A DNA stretch of 64,000 nucleotides, from contig JAJEEV010000024.1 of NCBI GenBank assembly GCA_022820805.1, forward strand, positions 62,001-126,000, in the 5' to 3' direction. The notes under the pieces were generated by a model. That model did no database searches, was not told the origin of the DNA, and saw only the letters and a program-made list of their open reading frames with translations. This document shows, one piece after another, positions 5,471-61,207 of the stretch (position 1 is the first letter of the stretch; every line of letters starts with the position of its first letter). Source of the DNA: Acidimicrobiia bacterium. Lineage in GTDB: Bacteria > Actinomycetota > Acidimicrobiia > Acidimicrobiales > Aldehydirespiratoraceae. Both the position numbers and the translations under genes were made by a program.

Positions 5471-6429
5471 GGGCTGGGAGCGGTCGCGGCGTCGGCCACG
5501 ATCGCGGCCAGGTCGTGCTCGATGACCCGGTCGCGGTCCTCGCGGTACTTCAACAGCGCACCCAAGGTGGCCGAGGCGTTGGCGAGGTCGAGCGTCGCTC
5601 CGCCCAGAAGGCTCAGGGCCCGGGCCCAGTCGATGGTCTCGGCCACTCCCGGCGGCTTGTAGAGCCCGACCTCGCGCATGGCGGCCGCGGCGTGCGCGAC
5701 CTGCCGGGCCAGGCTCTCGGTCACCTCCGGGGCCCTTAGACGGATGATCGCCGCCTCCCGCTGCGGGCCGGGATGGGCCACCCAGTGATAGAGGCAGCGG
5801 CGCTTCAAGGCGTCGTGCACGTCGCGGGTGCGGTTGGAGGTGATGACCACCACGGGCGGGTCGACGGCAGCGAAGGTGCCCAGTTCGGGGATGGTGATCG
5901 AGTAGTCCGACAGCACCTCCAGGAGGAACGCCTCGAACTCGTCGTCGGAGCGGTCGACCTCGTCGACCAGCAGCACCGGCGGCGGGCCGTCGGCGGCCTC
6001 GATCGCCTCCAGGAGGGGGCGGCGCACCAGGAAGCGCTCGTTGTAGAGCTCGTCGGCGATCCGGTCCTCGTCCGCGCCGTGGGCCCGCCCGGTGGCCTCC
6101 ATCGTTCGCAGGTGCAGCAGCTGGCGGGCGTAGTCCCATTCGTAGACCGCTTGGGCCGCGTCGATGCCCTCGTAGCACTGCAGCCGTATCAGCCGCCCGC
6201 CGCCCCAGTCGGCGATCACCTTGGCGACCTCGGTCTTGCCCACGCCGGGCTCGCCCTCCAGCAGCAGCGGCCGGCGCAGGCGCAGGGCCAGGTAGACCGC
6301 GGTGGCGAGCGCCGCGTCGGGCAGGTAGGCGTGGTCGCTTAGCCCCTGCGACACCTCTTCCACGCTTGAGACGGAGCGCAGGTCGGCGGCTGCCATCCGG
6401 TCGAGCATAGGCCCCGGCGCCGGAGTCAC
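5467..6429 (-). CDS. coxD: CoxD/MoxR-type AAA+ ATPase
   Basis: A 300-320 residue MoxR-family AAA+ ATPase, partner of CoxE. The Walker A motif is LLLEGEPGVGKTEVA (about residue 60), Walker B is VLLVDEVDRSDDEFE (about 150), sensor 1 is VVITSNRTRDVHDALKRRC, and the CoxD-like lid follows. It heads the coxD-coxE-coxF run. A GTG at 6429, an ATG at 6408 and an ATG at 6396 are possible starts; I give the longest. Its upstream flank is filled by the tandem dispersed repeat at 6433-6712, so its promoter would have to lie in the repeat or further upstream. Confidence 0.9.
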   Translation of the reverse strand: MTPAPGPMLDRMAAADLRSVSSVEEVSQGLSDHAYLPDAALATAVYLALRLRRPLLLEGEPGVGKTEVAKVIADWGGGRLIRLQCYEGIDAAQAVYEWDYARQLLHLRTMEATGRAHGADEDRIADELYNERFLVRRPLLEAIEAADGPPPVLLVDEVDRSDDEFEAFLLEVLSDYSITIPELGTFAAVDPPVVVITSNRTRDVHDALKRRCLYHWVAHPGPQREAAIIRLRAPEVTESLARQVAHAAAAMREVGLYKPPGVAETIDWARALSLLGGATLDLANASATLGALLKYREDRDRVIEHDLAAIVADAATAPSP

Positions 6430-6432
6430 ACT

Positions 6433-6580
6433 AAGAGCGCCCGCAAATAGGTGAGAGCCCGTCGCGCCGCAGCGGGGTCATTCCCGCTCTTGTTCGCTGC
6501 GCTCACGGGCCGCTCGGGCCACGGCCTCGCGCCGTATGAGCCGCGTTGCTCCGCCTATTCGCTCGGCCTCTAAGTAGGGG
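6433..6580 (-). repeat. Dispersed repeat copy R2 (tandem duplicate of thioesterase 3' end)
   Basis: A full copy of the dispersed repeat. The 67-nt conserved arm spans 6477-6543 with one mismatch to R1, the 15-nt variable spacer is 6544-6558, and the left arm follows. On the minus strand it would encode GPYLEAERIG and then REAVARAARERSEQERE and a TGA stop, just like the true end of the thioesterase gene. The period between the two copies is 142 bp. The copy fills the whole gap between the thioesterase stop and the coxD start. Confidence 0.85.
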
Positions 6581-6598
6581 CCGCGCGGATGGGCGAGC

Positions 6599-6712
6599 GC
6601 CCGTCGCGCCGCAGCGGGGTCATTCCCGCTCTTGTTCGCTGCGCTCACGGGCCGCTCGGGCCACGGCCTCGCGCCGTATGGGCCGGATTCGAGTGCCTAT
6701 CCGCTCGGCCTC
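6599..6712 (-). repeat. Dispersed repeat copy R1 (overlaps the thioesterase coding tail)
   Basis: The conserved 67-nt arm is 6619-6685, identical to copy R4 at 38382-38448. The 15-nt variable spacer is 6686-6700 and the left arm CCGCTCGGCCTC is 6701-6712 (plus-strand reading). The copy is translated as the last 29 residues of the thioesterase and its TGA falls at the same position in the repeat as in R2, R3 and R4. Confidence 0.9.
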
Positions 6713-14628: not shown

Positions 14629-14766
14629 AGAGTGCCCGCGAATAGCTCAGAGCCGTCCGCGTCGCAGTGTTGTCATCCCCGCTCATGTTCGCTGCGCTCA
14701 CGGGCCGCTCGGGCCACGGCCTCGCGCCGTATGGGCCGCGCTGTCCCGCCCATCCGCTCGGCCTCT
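14629..14766 (-). repeat. Dispersed repeat copy R3 between rplY and pth
   Basis: A full copy: conserved arm 14672-14738 with two mismatches to R1, 15-nt variable spacer 14739-14753, left arm 14754-14766 ending exactly at the rplY stop codon. Beyond the arm it shares the outer segment AGAGTGCCCGCGAATAG with copy R2 (14629 onwards). It fills nearly all of the intergenic gap. Confidence 0.88.
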
Positions 14767-25781: not shown

Positions 25782-26720
25782 CTAGAGCTCGACGCCGGCT
25801 CTGTCCTCCCGGAGCGACCGGCGCTCGGTACGCCGCTCCAGCATGATCCGGGCGACCCGCCCGATCCGCTCGATCAGGCTCATGAGCCGATCCCGGGCCG
25901 CCTCGGCCACACCCGAGAGACCGGCGAGGCTGGCAAGGTTCCAGTCGCGCAACACCACCGGCTGCAGTATCTGATCGTGGTGGATGGCGAGGTCGTAGAT
26001 GCCGGCGTCGGCGATGGTGCGGGCGTGGGCGTCGAAGTCGGTGATGCCGACGCCGGGCATGGCGAAGCCCTTCACCTGGTTGGCGATGGCCACCACCGCC
26101 TTGGACGGCTCGACCTTGAGCGCCGCGCACATGGCGTCGCGGTAGAAGAGGAAGTGGAGGTTCTCGTCGTAGGCCACCCGGCGCATGATGGCCCTCCCGG
26201 CCGGGTCATCGATGTGCCGTCCCGTGTTGTAATGCGAGATCCGGGTGGCCAGCTCCTGGAGGGCGACGTAGGCGAGACCCTCCAGCGCGTTGGGCGGCTC
26301 GGGGACCTGCCCGCACTGCACCTGGGCCATCCGAGCCCTCTCCAGGCTGACCGGATCGACCGACCGGGTCACCGCGAGATAGTCGTGGATCACCTGCCCG
26401 TGGCGACCCTCCTCGGCCGTCCAGCGCCGCACCCAATGGCCCCACGCGCCGTCGCGGCCGAACATGCGCTCGATGTCGCGGAAGTAGTAGGGCAGGTTGT
26501 CCTCGGTCAGGACGTTGACGAACAACGCGCTGCGGGCCTCGGCGCTGAGGTCGGCCTCCTCGGGGCACCACTCGTAGTCGTCGGGAAAGTCCCGGCCCCT
26601 GCTCCAGGGGACCAGCTTGTGGGGATGCCACTCCTTGGCCTGACGGAGGTGGCGCTCGTAGAGCCTCTCGACGCTGGGCTCGAGTTCGGCCAGCAGACGC
26701 TGCTCAGAGTCGATCGGCAT
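25782..26720 (-). CDS. Acyl-ACP desaturase
   Basis: A 312-residue soluble diiron fatty acid desaturase of the stearoyl-ACP (mycobacterial DesA) family, which inserts a cis double bond in acyl carrier protein-bound chains with O2 and ferredoxin. Iron-binding segments are visible: LTEDNLPYYFRDIERMFG, WTAEEGRHGQVIHDYL (E-ExxRH) and VAYDENLHFLFYRDAM (DExxH). The ATG at 26720 starts the family-typical SEQRLLAELEPSVERLYERH. It lies downstream of ychF. Confidence 0.9.
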   Translation of the reverse strand: MPIDSEQRLLAELEPSVERLYERHLRQAKEWHPHKLVPWSRGRDFPDDYEWCPEEADLSAEARSALFVNVLTEDNLPYYFRDIERMFGRDGAWGHWVRRWTAEEGRHGQVIHDYLAVTRSVDPVSLERARMAQVQCGQVPEPPNALEGLAYVALQELATRISHYNTGRHIDDPAGRAIMRRVAYDENLHFLFYRDAMCAALKVEPSKAVVAIANQVKGFAMPGVGITDFDAHARTIADAGIYDLAIHHDQILQPVVLRDWNLASLAGLSGVAEAARDRLMSLIERIGRVARIMLERRTERRSLREDRAGVEL

Positions 26721-29534: not shown

Positions 29535-30725
29535 ATGAATAAGCGCTTGCTAGCGCTGATCGCGCTGCTGCTCTCGTTCACCATGCTCGCCGCGGCGTGC
29601 GGTGACGACGACGATGCAGAGACCGTCGCCGAACCGGCACCCGCCGAGCCCGAGCCCGCGGCCGAACCCGAGCCCGAGCCAGCGACCGAGCCTGACCCCG
29701 AGCCCGAGCCCGAGCCTGAGACCACTGAGGCGCCCGCGCCCGAGCCCGAGATGACCGACATCTCGGTCGGCCTGGTGTTCGACATCGGAGGCCGCGGCGA
29801 CCAGTCGTTCAACGACTCGGCCGCTGCCGGCATCGAGCGAGCCGCCGCTGAGCTCGGCATCACCTTCACCGAGGCCTCGCCCGAGCCCGACGGCTCCAAC
29901 CGGGGCGAGCTGCTCCAGCTCGCGGCCGACGCCCACGACATCGTCGTCGGCGTCGGGTTCCTGTTCGAGGGCGACGCGGCCGCGGTCGGCGCCGAGAACC
30001 CCGACACGAAGTTCGGCGTGGTCGACTCGGCCATGCTCAACTTCGGCGCCGATCCCATCGCGCCCTACGGCGACAACATCGCCGGCCTGGTGTTCGCGGA
30101 GCACGAGGGCTCGTTCCTGGTGGGAGCGGCCGCCGCGCTCAAGAGCGAGACCGGCACCATCGGCTTCATCGGCGGCGTGGCCAACGTCGGCGGCCTGATC
30201 GAGCGGTTCGAGGCCGGCTTCAACGCCGGCGCCCGGGCCGTCAACCCCGACATCGAGATCATCGGCGACTACATCACCGAGGCTCCCGACTTCGACGGCT
30301 TCAACGCCCCGGACCGGGCCAAGGAGATCGCGCTGGCCATGTACGAGAGCGGCGCCGACATCGTGTACCACGCGGCGGGCGGCTCCGGTGCGGGCCTGTT
30401 CCAGGCCGCCCTGGAGCAGAGCGAGGCCACCGGGTCCAAGGTGTGGGCCATCGGCGTCGACTCCGACCAGTACAACACCGCCGACGCCGGGGTGCGCGAC
30501 TACATCCTCACCTCGATGCTCAAGCGGGTGGACGTGTCGATCTTCGAGATGATCAGGTCCGTCATCGACGGCACCATGCAGCCCGGCCCGACCACCTACG
30601 ACCTGTCGGTCGACGGCGTCGGCTACAGCACCTCCGGCGGTTTCGTGGACGACATCGCCGACCAGCTCGACGCGTTCAAGGCTCAGATCGTGTCCGGCGA
30701 GATCTCGGTGCCGACCGAGCCCTAG
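29535..30725 (+). CDS. BMP family ABC transporter substrate-binding lipoprotein
   Basis: A 396-residue lipoprotein. The signal peptide ends in the lipobox LAAAC (residues 17-21). A long acidic Glu-Pro linker of about 50 residues follows, then a BMP/Med (PnrA-like) periplasmic-binding domain: GLVFDIGGRGDQSFNDSAAAG, VGFLFEGDAAAVG, GFIGGVANVGGLIERFEAGF, VYHAAGGSGAGLFQAA and WAIGVDSDQ. Relatives bind purine nucleosides. The ATG at 29535 has GGAGG 5 nt upstream. Two hairpins separate it from the ATPase gene, as expected for a binding protein made in excess. Confidence 0.93.
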   Translation: MNKRLLALIALLLSFTMLAAACGDDDDAETVAEPAPAEPEPAAEPEPEPATEPDPEPEPEPETTEAPAPEPEMTDISVGLVFDIGGRGDQSFNDSAAAGIERAAAELGITFTEASPEPDGSNRGELLQLAADAHDIVVGVGFLFEGDAAAVGAENPDTKFGVVDSAMLNFGADPIAPYGDNIAGLVFAEHEGSFLVGAAAALKSETGTIGFIGGVANVGGLIERFEAGFNAGARAVNPDIEIIGDYITEAPDFDGFNAPDRAKEIALAMYESGADIVYHAAGGSGAGLFQAALEQSEATGSKVWAIGVDSDQYNTADAGVRDYILTSMLKRVDVSIFEMIRSVIDGTMQPGPTTYDLSVDGVGYSTSGGFVDDIADQLDAFKAQIVSGEISVPTEP

Positions 30726-38353: not shown

Positions 38354-38467
38354 AGAGGCCGAGCGGATAGATGCACGACTCCGGCCCATACGGCGCGAGG
38401 CCGTGGCCCGAGCGGCCCGTGAGCGCAGCGAACAAGAGCGGGAATGACACCGCTGCGACACGATGGG
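38354..38467 (+). repeat. Dispersed repeat copy R4
   Basis: A full copy in the opposite orientation to the others. Left arm GAGGCCGAGCGG 38355-38366, 15-nt spacer 38367-38381, conserved arm 38382-38448 identical to R1 over all 67 nt, outer segment to 38467. It begins 37 nt upstream of the acyl-CoA dehydrogenase start and ends next to the YihY stop codon. The would-be reading frame on the plus strand ends in TGA at 38445-38447. Confidence 0.9.
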
Positions 38468-39382
38468 TCAGGCATCAACTCGCGCTCTCTCTGAGGTGTG
38501 CAGGTCGCGGCGGCCGTTGAGTATGTGGTTGATCTCCGCCCCGACCAGCAGTCCCATCGCCAGCAGGTACAGCCAGATGAGCAGGCTGAGGGCACCGCCG
38601 AGCAGGCCGAACACCGCGTTCACGCCGCTGGAGGCCACGTCGAGATAGACGCGGAATCCCATCGACACCGCCAGCCACCAGACGGTGCCCACGACCGCGC
38701 CGGGCAGGTCGGTCCGCCAGGGAGTCCGGCGGCGAGGGGCAAAGTGGTAGATCGACGCCCCCCAGCAGACCACCACCACGAACACCACCGGCCAGCGGAA
38801 CCACACCCAGGCGGTGGTGAACGCCGAACCGGCCCCCAGGCGGTCGGCCAACTCCTCACCCCCGCCGAGCAGGGGTCCCACCACCACCATGGCGGCCACC
38901 AGCGCGGCCACCACCAGGGTGAACAGGGTCAGCACGAGGCCCATCACCCGGGTGGAGACCCAGTTCCTGCGGTTCTCATGGCCGTAGGTGACGTCGAGGG
39001 CGCCGACCACCGCGGTGAACCCCCGGGACGAGGCGTAGAGGGTCAGCACGACGCCGGCGGTGATCAGGCCCGCGTTGGACCGGTCGAAGAGCTCCTCGAT
39101 CGTCTGCCCCAGAGTGTTGTCGCGGCCGAAGGTCTCGACGACGCGGTCCAGCAGCCATTGCTCGGTGTCGGCTGCGGCACCGGCGCCGATCACCACGTCG
39201 AGCGAGCCCAGCGCGGCCGCGAACACCAGCACCGCGGGAAACAGCCCCAGGAGGCCGAAGAAGGCGATCTCGGCCGACAGGCCACCGACGCGGGCCCGGG
39301 ACCACTCGTCGCGGAAGTCGCCGATGAGTGTGAGGATGCCGCGCCACAGCGCGGGCAGCGAGGGCATCGATGGGCGCGCCAT
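38468..39382 (-). CDS. YihY/virulence factor BrkB family membrane protein
   Basis: A 304-residue integral membrane protein with about six TM segments and a cytosolic N-terminus (GDFRDEWSRARVGGLSAEIAFFGLLGLFP, the family start). GAAADTEQWLLDRV, LTLYASSRGFTAVVGALDVTYG and YHFAPRRRTPWRTDLPGAVVG are conserved BrkB features. The family was once mis-called RNase BN; its function is unclear, possibly a transporter. The stop abuts repeat R4. Confidence 0.9.
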   Translation of the reverse strand: MARPSMPSLPALWRGILTLIGDFRDEWSRARVGGLSAEIAFFGLLGLFPAVLVFAAALGSLDVVIGAGAAADTEQWLLDRVVETFGRDNTLGQTIEELFDRSNAGLITAGVVLTLYASSRGFTAVVGALDVTYGHENRRNWVSTRVMGLVLTLFTLVVAALVAAMVVVGPLLGGGEELADRLGAGSAFTTAWVWFRWPVVFVVVVCWGASIYHFAPRRRTPWRTDLPGAVVGTVWWLAVSMGFRVYLDVASSGVNAVFGLLGGALSLLIWLYLLAMGLLVGAEINHILNGRRDLHTSERARVDA

Positions 39383-40388: not shown

Positions 40389-43253
40389 TCAACTGCAGCC
40401 GCTGGTGGCGCCGCAGTCGGCGCACACGTAGCACGACCCGGCGCGGCGCATGGGGACGCCGCAGGTCATGCAGAAGGGCGCGTCCAGGGAGCTCACGGCC
40501 GGGCCCGCGGCGTGTCCGCCGCTCATGCCCGCTGCTCTCACGCGCCGCTCGGGCCCGGGCGCCTCGGGTGGCGCCGAGGCCGCGGAGAAGTCCAATTGGG
40601 CCATCAGCTGGGCCGGTGAGGGGACCGAGGGCGGATCGGGCGGGAGATCGTGGCCCTGCTCGGTCTCGGCGACCTGCTCCTCCACGCCGGGAAGCGTCGG
40701 CTGGGTCCGCTCGCCGGTGGTGTACACGCCGAGCGAGGCCCGCTCGGCCGGCGTCAGGTACATCACCGCCAGCTTGCGGAACAGGTAGTCCATGAGGCTG
40801 GTGGCGATGCGGATGTCGGGATCGTCGGTGATGCCGGCGGGCTCGAAGCGCACGCCCACGAACGTCTCGACGAAGGCGGCCAGCGGGACGCCGTACTGCA
40901 GGCCGTGGCTCAGCGAAATCGCGAAGGCGTCCATGATCCCGGCCAGGGTGGAGCCCTGCTTTGAGACCTTCACGAAGATCTCGCCCGGCCGGCCGTCGGG
41001 GTACTCCCCCACCGTGACGAACCCCTTGCAGTCGGCCACCCGGAACTCGAAGGTGCGCGACCGGCGAGACTTGGGAAGCCGCCGGCGCACTGGCTCCGGC
41101 GGGGCCTCGCCGGCCGACGGGCGCTCGGTGCCGGATCCGTCGGGACTGCCGCTGTCGCGGGAGCCCTCGGAGGCGCCGACGGTGAGCGGTTGACCGACCT
41201 TCGAGCTGTCGCGGTACACAGCCACCGACTTGAGGCCGAGGCGCCAGGCGTCGATGAACAGCTGCTCCACGCCATCGACTGTCGTCTCGGCTGGCATGTT
41301 CACGGTCTTGGAGATGGCCCCGGACAGGAACGGTTGGACGGCCGCCATCATCTCGATGTGTCCTGACGGGCTGATGGCGTCGTCACCCAGCGAGCAGGCG
41401 AACACCTCGAGGTGCTCGGGATCGATGGGCGCTCCGGCCACACGGTGGTGCTCGGCGATGTGATCGGTGATGCGCTCGATCCGCTCATCGTCATAGCCGA
41501 GGCGGCGCAGCGCCCTGGGCACGGTGTTGTTCACGATCTCCATGGTTCCGCCGCCCACCAGGCGCTTGGACTTCACCAGCCCGAGATCGGGCTCGATGCC
41601 GGTGGTGTCGCAGTCCATGAGCAGCCCGATCGTGCCGGTGGGAGCCAGCACCGTGGCCTGGCTGTTGCGCACACCGTGGCGGTCGGCCCGGTCGCAGGCC
41701 TCGTCCCACGCCAACTGGGCAGCCTCCAGCAGGCTGGGCGGCGCCATGTCCTCGTCGATGGACGCGGTGGCGGTGCGGTGCTGGTCCAACACCCGCAGCA
41801 TGGGGTCGCGGTTGGTGTGGAAGCCGGCGAAGGGACCCATCCGCTCCGCCAGCCGGGTGGACGTGAGGTAGGCCTCGCCGGTCATCACAGCGGTGACGGC
41901 GGCAGCCACCGCCCGGCCCTCGTCGGAGTCGTAGGGAAGGCCCATGGCCATCAGCAGCGCGCCTAGGTTGGCGTAGCCCAGCCCGAGCTGGCGGAACGCC
42001 CGGGTGACCTCCGCGATGGCCTCGGTCGGGTAGTCGGCGTGGCCCACCAGGATCTCCTGGGCGGTGAACAGCACCTGCACCGCCCTTCGGAAGCCGCTGA
42101 CGTCGAAGGAGCCGTCGTCGTCGAGGAAGCTCAACAGGTTGATCGAGGCCAGGTTGCAGGCGCTGTCGTCGAGGTGGACGTACTCCGAGCACGGGTTGCT
42201 GGCAGTGATGGGGCCAGTGGCCGGGGCCGTGTGCCAGCGGTTGATGGTCGTCGCGAACTGCACGCCCGGGTCGGCGCACTCCCACGCGGCCTCCGCCATC
42301 TGGCGCAGGATCGAGCGGGCCGGCACCCGATCGAGCACGGTGCCGTCGGTTCGGGCCGTCAGGTCCCAGTCATCGCCCGACGTGGCGGCCCGCATGAACT
42401 CGTCGGTCACCCGCACGGAGTTGTTGGCGTTCTGGTACTGGACCGAGTCGCTGTCGGCGCCGTCCACACCCATGTCGAACCCGGCCTCGGCCAGCACTCT
42501 CGACTTGCGCTCCTCGCGGGCCTTGCACCAGATGAAGTCCTCGATGTCGGGATGGTCGGCGTCGAGCACCACCATCTTCGCCGCCCGGCGGGTCTTGCCG
42601 CCGGACTTGATGGTGCCGGCCGAGGCGTCCGCCCCCCGCATGAAGCTCACCGGTCCCGAGGCGGTGCCGCCGCCGCTGAGCGGTTCGGAGCTGGCCCGGA
42701 TGCGCGACAGGTTCACCCCGGCGCCGGAGCCGCCCTTGAAGATCCGGCCCTCCTCCGCGTACCACTCCAGGATCGACTCCATCGTGTCGTCCACCGACAG
42801 GATGAAGCACGCCGACGCCTGCTGGGGCACGCCGGCCACGCCGATGTTGAACCAGACCGGCGAGTTGAAGGCGGCCCGCTGCGTGTACAGCAAGTGCGAG
42901 AGCTCGGCCCGGAACTGGGACGCCTCGGACGCGTCGGCGAAGTATCCGTCGGCGTCTCCCCAGTCGGTGATGGCGCCCACGACGCGGTTCACCACCTGCT
43001 TGAGCGACCACTCGCGCTCGGGAGTTCCCAGCGAGCCGCGGAAGTACTTCTGGGCCAGGATGTTGGTGGCGTTCTGAGACCAGGTGGACGGCACCTCGAC
43101 ATCGGGCTGCTCGAAGGCGACCGAGCCGTCCCTGTGGTCGAGCAGGCGCGCGTCGCGACGCTCCCACGCGATCCGGTCGGCCGGATCCTCCAGACCCGCG
43201 GGCACAGGGTGGCTGCCGGAGATCAGAGCGGTCTGCTCGGGGGCCATGGTCAT
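40389..43253 (-). CDS. nrdJ: Adenosylcobalamin-dependent (class II) ribonucleotide reductase
   Basis: A 954-residue class II RNR, which reduces nucleotides using a B12-derived thiyl radical. Motifs: SACFILSVDDTMESI, GGSGAGVNLSRIRASSEPLSGG, ITASNPCSEYVHLDDSACNLAS (active-site N-C-E), LAPTGTIGLLMDCDTTGIEP, and a C-terminal Cys cluster (CMTCGVPMRRAGSCYVCADC) that re-reduces the active site. The ATG at 43253 has AGGAGGG upstream. Near the C-terminus, residues encoded by 40519-40555 match the dispersed repeat in a different frame. Confidence 0.96.
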   Translation of the reverse strand: MTMAPEQTALISGSHPVPAGLEDPADRIAWERRDARLLDHRDGSVAFEQPDVEVPSTWSQNATNILAQKYFRGSLGTPEREWSLKQVVNRVVGAITDWGDADGYFADASEASQFRAELSHLLYTQRAAFNSPVWFNIGVAGVPQQASACFILSVDDTMESILEWYAEEGRIFKGGSGAGVNLSRIRASSEPLSGGGTASGPVSFMRGADASAGTIKSGGKTRRAAKMVVLDADHPDIEDFIWCKAREERKSRVLAEAGFDMGVDGADSDSVQYQNANNSVRVTDEFMRAATSGDDWDLTARTDGTVLDRVPARSILRQMAEAAWECADPGVQFATTINRWHTAPATGPITASNPCSEYVHLDDSACNLASINLLSFLDDDGSFDVSGFRRAVQVLFTAQEILVGHADYPTEAIAEVTRAFRQLGLGYANLGALLMAMGLPYDSDEGRAVAAAVTAVMTGEAYLTSTRLAERMGPFAGFHTNRDPMLRVLDQHRTATASIDEDMAPPSLLEAAQLAWDEACDRADRHGVRNSQATVLAPTGTIGLLMDCDTTGIEPDLGLVKSKRLVGGGTMEIVNNTVPRALRRLGYDDERIERITDHIAEHHRVAGAPIDPEHLEVFACSLGDDAISPSGHIEMMAAVQPFLSGAISKTVNMPAETTVDGVEQLFIDAWRLGLKSVAVYRDSSKVGQPLTVGASEGSRDSGSPDGSGTERPSAGEAPPEPVRRRLPKSRRSRTFEFRVADCKGFVTVGEYPDGRPGEIFVKVSKQGSTLAGIMDAFAISLSHGLQYGVPLAAFVETFVGVRFEPAGITDDPDIRIATSLMDYLFRKLAVMYLTPAERASLGVYTTGERTQPTLPGVEEQVAETEQGHDLPPDPPSVPSPAQLMAQLDFSAASAPPEAPGPERRVRAAGMSGGHAAGPAVSSLDAPFCMTCGVPMRRAGSCYVCADCGATSGCS
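40519..40555 (-). repeat. Diverged fragment of the dispersed repeat inside nrdJ (R8)
   Basis: From the bases CCGCTCATG to CTCGGGCC on the plus strand this stretch matches the conserved arm of R3 at about 32 of 36 positions without gaps. In nrdJ it is read in another frame (PERRVRAAGMS) than in the thioesterase tail. It lies in the linker between the catalytic core and the C-terminal Cys motif. Confidence 0.6.
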
Positions 43254-61019: not shown

Positions 61020-61113
61020 AGCGGGCGTGACCAAGGTACCCCGGCCGCTCGGCCGTCAGATCAACCCTGAGGAGCGTGCCCGGGAAGGCGCAGGCCCATC
61101 GCCTAGAGACGGG

Positions 61114-61207
61114 GTCTTTCCCGCTCTTGTTCGCTGCGCTCACGGGCCGCTCGGGCCACGGCCTCGCGCCGTATGGGCCGCGTTGTCCTGGCTGGCCGCT
61201 CGGCCTC
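61114..61207 (-). repeat. Dispersed repeat copy R5 between CapA and rimO genes
   Basis: Conserved arm 61114-61180 with one mismatch to R1 (TCATT becomes TCTTT, which removes the TGA), 15-nt spacer 61181-61195, left arm 61196-61207. GAG of the left arm directly follows the CapA stop codon TAA, in frame with CapA. The outer segment seen in R2 and R3 is absent. Confidence 0.88.

Follow-up and report, generated by a model that had tools for sequence, protein, structure and literature searches.

A putative IS5-family MITE as the source of the predicted end of an actinobacterial thioesterase-superfamily gene

Introduction

When the last codons of a conserved gene lie inside a repeat, which came first, the repeat or the gene end? 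The question is raised by a 64,000-nucleotide stretch of actinobacterial DNA (the window), in which a thioesterase-superfamily gene runs in frame into one copy of a short repeat and a second copy adjoins the first. A sequence-only reading of this locus offered two histories: either the repeat inserted in the 3' end of the gene and the joint was then duplicated, or the gene end itself gave rise to the repeat family.

Results

The thioesterase matches the profile PF13279 over residues 10–128 (E 9.8e-22), and its open reading frame (ORF) ends in GPYL followed by EAERIGTRIRPIRREAVARAARERSEQERE and a stop. In the comparison that the sequence-only reading had proposed, orthologous proteins end at about residues 128–152, and within the genus at 133–134. 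The tail occurs in none of the orthologues at the genus, family and order loci that cover the 3' end of the gene, 13 of them from the same genus, with complete loci added from further genome contigs. The closest sisters end in GGCCCCTACTTCGTGTGA (GPYFV and a stop), and this sequence is split in the window: the proximal repeat copy is preceded by GGCCCCTACCTG, and the distal one is followed by TTAGTGTGA (Table 1). Because orthologues stop near residue 133 and the old GTG-TGA end survives past the distal copy, the predicted last 30 residues of the thioesterase and their TGA stop are, on this comparison, supplied by a mobile repeat. Insertion in the 3' end of the gene, as had been proposed, is thus borne out. 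The positions given in the sequence-only reading hold, and its figure of 29 repeat-encoded residues is right as to their source and one short as to their number: the tail comprises residues 133–162, and the first base of residue 133 (position 6712) is the first base of the 136-bp proximal repeat (6577–6712, minus strand). The tailed thioesterase is known from one genome, and the tail is probably an accidental, tolerated extension.

Table 1. Positions of the thioesterase gene, its tail and putative miniature inverted-repeat transposable element (MITE) copies in the window; TSD, target-site duplication
Feature	Position	Strand	Basis or remarks
Thioesterase-superfamily gene (4HBT_2), 162 aa	6620..7108	-	ORF; residues 1–132 are the native protein
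Predicted element-derived coding tail EAERIGTRIRPIRREAVARAARERSEQERE and stop	6620..6712	-	Translation, orthologue comparison
Proximal MITE copy, 136 bp; residues 133–162 and TGA stop	6577..6712	-	Alignment, subfamily tree; left end GAGGCCGAGCGGATAGG, right end CCCATCCGCGCGGCCCC
Target duplication TTA left of distal copy	6571..6573	-	Sequence
Distal MITE copy, 136 bp, probable recent independent insertion, non-coding	6435..6570	-	135/136 match to copies L022, L026 and L027
Target duplication TTA right of distal copy	6432..6434	-	Sequence
Displaced ancestral stop codon TGA	6426..6428	-	TTA GTG TGA vs TTC GTG TGA in sisters (G006, G008, G010)
MITE copy at stop codon of ribosomal protein L25-like gene	14630..14765	-
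MITE copy, TSD TGA...TGA	38355..38491	+
Decayed core fragment	40519..40555	-
MITE copy, left TSD (TAA) is stop codon of adjoining PGA_cap gene	61072..61207	-

What kind of repeat is this? Full copies, studied on stretches of genomes, are mostly 135–136 bp long and have no transposase gene. They carry imperfect 17-bp terminal inverted repeats (TIRs; GAGGCCGAGCGRATAGG at one end, GAGCGAGCGCAAATAGG or GGGGCCACGCGGATAGG at the other), which gives the family pattern GAGGCCGAGCGRATAGG...CCTATYYGCG(CTCGCTC or TGGCCCC), and are flanked by 3-bp duplications, mostly TNA. Among 39 TIR–TIR pairs chosen without regard to the interior core sequence, 16 have identical 3-bp flanks (~0.6 expected), and TNA stands on one or both sides in 31. 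Orthologous sites are empty in sister species, for example, GGCTAGGGATCC vs GGCTA-element-TCATCC in G015. With its inverted ends, target duplications and empty sites, in addition to its shortness and many copies, the repeat is therefore best described as a MITE.

The family is abundant. The window genome, G000, is a 3.4-Mb draft of 53 contigs that is 94.8% complete, with contigs breaking at repeats. A 142-bp query has at least 41 matches in it, and a 35-nt piece of the core has 148 copies (≤3 mismatches; reversed control pattern, 0), far more than chance would give. Most other genomes of the genus have 57–280 copies of this piece (one has 0 and one has 5). In a second genus of the family the count reaches 30, and beyond that the piece is nearly absent, with 1 or 2 matches in two further genomes (reversed control, 0). 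Known phages and plasmids have no match to the repeat, and spread by such carriers was rejected. No Rfam family covers the repeat and no description of the family was found in the literature searched; it seems that neither the element family nor its strongly conserved inner segment has been described before. Left ends (GAGGCCGAGCGGATAGG) also occur alone, with no core beside them (G000:C23:201273, G000:C23:249692, G013:C86:4921 and G010:C5 near 76200), often near start codons or −10-like boxes; CTAGGCTC ahead of a MoxR-like gene is an example. The same intergenic gaps are occupied in different species, as at G003:C21 ~62820 and G007:C13 ~31156; at G003:C21 ~59246 and G007:C13 ~27716, the copies in the two species have opposite orientations. 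These gaps are probable insertion hot spots.

Which autonomous element could move such a MITE? DDE transposases were collected across the genus and order, and the ends of their elements inspected. IS5-family elements of 945–969 bp (~0.95 kb) in sister genomes have similar ends and 3-bp duplications; the IS5-family transposase in G001 matches NF033580 (E 2.5e-41) as well as PF13340 and PF01609. Ends are shared between the MITE and four of these elements (L232, L211, L207 and L208). One end of L232 (G012:C53), GAGCGAGCGCAAATAGG, is identical to the MITE right end at 17 of 17 positions. Most complete elements are flanked by TTA or TAA (TTA...TTA for L211 in G041 and for L210 and L222 in G030, the latter two beginning GGG/GGA; TAA...TAA for L208 in G012:C42), and one, L232, by TTG...TTG. 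A 945-bp IS5-family element whose ends are related is present eight times in G026 (L213, L223, L231 and others), and the copies examined have CAG or CGG duplications in place of TNA. IS1031-like members of the IS5 family have a TNA target and GAG ends. The MITE resembles them in its 3-bp TNA duplications and GAG ends, and its candidate parents in the NF033580 match of their transposase, but it differs in lacking a transposase gene and in its unrelated interior; given the CAG or CGG flanks in G026 and the GGG/GGA starts of L210 and L222, a place in the IS1031 subgroup is tentative. Its ends and duplications put the MITE in an IS5-family group that targets TNA and duplicates 3 bp. The candidate parents match it at the ends only: their best match to the MITE core has 14–18 mismatches of 38, as in random DNA, whereas many MITEs, though not all, have an interior left by deletion within the parent IS. 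A related transposase was not found in G000, a ~95% complete draft with contigs broken at repeats; the parent transposase may sit in the ~5% of the genome that is absent or in gaps caused by repeats. An active family would be expected to have an autonomous partner in its own genome, although this is no strict requirement.

Where do the elements insert? Upstream genes were called with a simple custom gene caller. Among 47 elements on contiguous stretches, 11 have a left duplication that overlaps the stop codon of the upstream gene; the corresponding rate is 9.3% at non-coding TNA sites (p = 0.003 against this null) and 1.5% when all TNA sites are counted. When the set is widened to 78 elements, stop codons are overlapped at 22 left and 8 right junctions. 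Read-through into the element is 16 nt to a TAG in four genes, 20 nt in two and 48 nt in one, and the thioesterase is the only gene with the 93-nt read to the internal TGA that makes a full tail. The stop-codon pattern recurs in the window at the L25-like and PGA_cap genes. Because TNA covers TAA and TGA, many insertions land on stop codons and leave the genes intact. The excess over the null rates may come from target choice or from the survival of harmless insertions.

Did the two copies at the thioesterase arise together? The second copy is present, as the sequence-only reading had it, in a 142-bp register, and the two are 87–89% identical (86.8% when the distal copy is set against the proximal one and its other relatives). 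A single insertion, followed by tandem duplication of the gene–repeat joint and then by divergence or gene conversion, would account for this register, for the TAC ahead of both copies and for a patch, CCCCGCTGCGGCGCGACGGGC, that both contain. Within this patch lies the single mismatch of the distal copy to its three near-identical relatives; the proximal copy has the same base there, which points to local conversion. However, the distal copy is 99.3% identical to those three unlinked copies elsewhere in the genome and sits in a clean TTA...TTA of its own, whereas the proximal copy groups in the subfamily tree with another subfamily (best identity 92.6%) with differently matched ends, and tandem neighbors are seen again elsewhere in the genus. 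The insertion account is weaker for the proximal copy, which lacks a clean duplication (CTG to its left, TAC to its right). The GPYL residues said to precede the second copy are mostly not thioesterase sequence: GGCCCC ahead of the distal copy is how elements of the proximal copy's subfamily terminate on the right, and is found also in copies at unrelated loci. Once it is so assigned only TAC remains, perhaps a trace of conversion acting locally between both GGCCCC runs. Because the two copies fall in different subfamilies and the distal one has a TSD of its own, duplication of the joint was set aside, and we regard it as improbable; two separate insertions are the most likely history. The converse proposal, that the gene's own 3' end was the origin of the family, draws on GGCCCCTA, a sequence common to the gene end and to the right end of one subfamily. 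It is at odds with the reach of the family, which numbers dozens to hundreds of copies per genome across most of the genus and recurs in a second genus, where the gene ends without repeat sequence, and with repeat ends that match an IS family. Tail-less orthologues in repeat-bearing species refute it, and we give it virtually no weight.

Does the shared reading frame reflect selection on the peptide? The copies do keep a common frame, as noted earlier, and REAVARAARERSEQERE is open in most of them; the tail could thus be a functional C-terminal peptide spread by the family, as proposed for Rickettsia palindromic elements (RPEs). However, changes among 44 distinct cores fall evenly over codon positions (28/27/33), with 34% synonymous vs 28% expected, in line with the earlier caution that frame conservation may reflect recency alone. 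Many gene-proximal insertions are at stop codons, and a full tail is made in 1 of 78. Peptide-level selection was dropped for want of a codon-position signal, and we consider it very unlikely. The frame is shared because the core is conserved, and is a by-product of that conservation with no sign of coding selection. Across the 39 end-pairs, mean identity is 95.5% in the 49-nt core vs 91% in the left end, 71% in the right end and 67%–72% in the arms, and a perfect 38-nt core is found in 27 pairs.

What, then, keeps the core constant? RNA structure was rejected, as folding gives the core no stability beyond that of shuffles (z 0.46 and 1.42). Host selection after insertion was first hinted at by the G003/G007 pair and was likewise set aside: decay of the core goes with decay of the left end (rho 0.70, n = 72), and the pair may be independent insertions because other sister species have empty sites there. 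The conservation pattern fits a requirement for mobility better than a host function, and recombination may homogenize the core. A tentative proposal, to which we give rather less than even weight, is that the 49-nt core is an essential site for mobility or for a host factor and entered the element from elsewhere than the parent IS, in a MITE design that is most conserved internally. Tandem arrays of the 38–49-nt core alone, spaced 43–46 bp and mostly without clear inverted ends, occur in several species (L147, G010:C4:18208-18395; L183, G005:C125:4115-4194; G002:C6:26207-26332), a hint that the core may spread by itself.

Discussion

We consider it highly probable that insertion of an IS5-family MITE at TNA gave the thioesterase its tail. 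A transposase supplied in trans would have moved the element, and one copy would have landed in the last codons of the gene, in frame through the element to its internal TGA. The native end would thereby have given way to a tail of 30 residues, many of them charged, and a copy of another subfamily would have landed beside this one, earlier or later. Many TNA insertions near genes would regenerate a stop codon and leave the protein unchanged, the thioesterase being the exception.

MITE-supplied protein ends are already known in other bacteria. For example, QMITE2 supplies the last 33 residues and stop of EnhC in one Coxiella strain (PMC5896051), likewise by in-frame insertion at a gene 3' end. 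Coxiella QMITEs affect functional genes at their 3' ends, a preference whose cause was called unknown (PMC5896051). QMITE2 has 7–11-bp duplications and a REP, whereas the present MITE has 3-bp TNA duplications, which offer a reason for the 3'-end bias; its ~148 core copies compare with ~50–80 for QMITE2. Correia elements and RPEs also contribute coding sequence (PMC2229807). The Correia elements of Neisseria are similarly short, non-autonomous and high in copy number, with inverted ends and one size class often fused to ORFs, but have TA termini and a sequence unrelated to that of the present MITE (PMC2229807). RPEs are repeats of 105–146 bp that can likewise become coding sequence. They lie in frame inside many genes, whereas the present elements show no regular in-frame insertion and full fusion is exceptional (1 of 78).

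The relatives of the thioesterase are from Acidimicrobiaceae/Acidimicrobiia metagenome-assembled genomes (MAGs), and several MAG series among them (SB06xx, RHO) are, we presume, from marine sponges. From these series we infer a sponge-associated host. Elsewhere in the window, positions 26344–26411 (+) match the Rfam ASdes sRNA at 43 bits (threshold, 40), outside Mycobacterium and possibly spuriously, and 29644–29749 is a low-complexity repeat of CCCGAGCCCGAG-type units that probably encodes a stretch rich in Pro and Glu.

What does the locus mean for the spread of such elements? Here, on sequence evidence, mobile DNA serves as the predicted end of a conserved protein, and the state before insertion can still be read. 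More broadly, a TNA target that covers stop codons, together with a 3-bp duplication that regenerates them, would be a simple reason for elements to build up at the 3' ends of genes.
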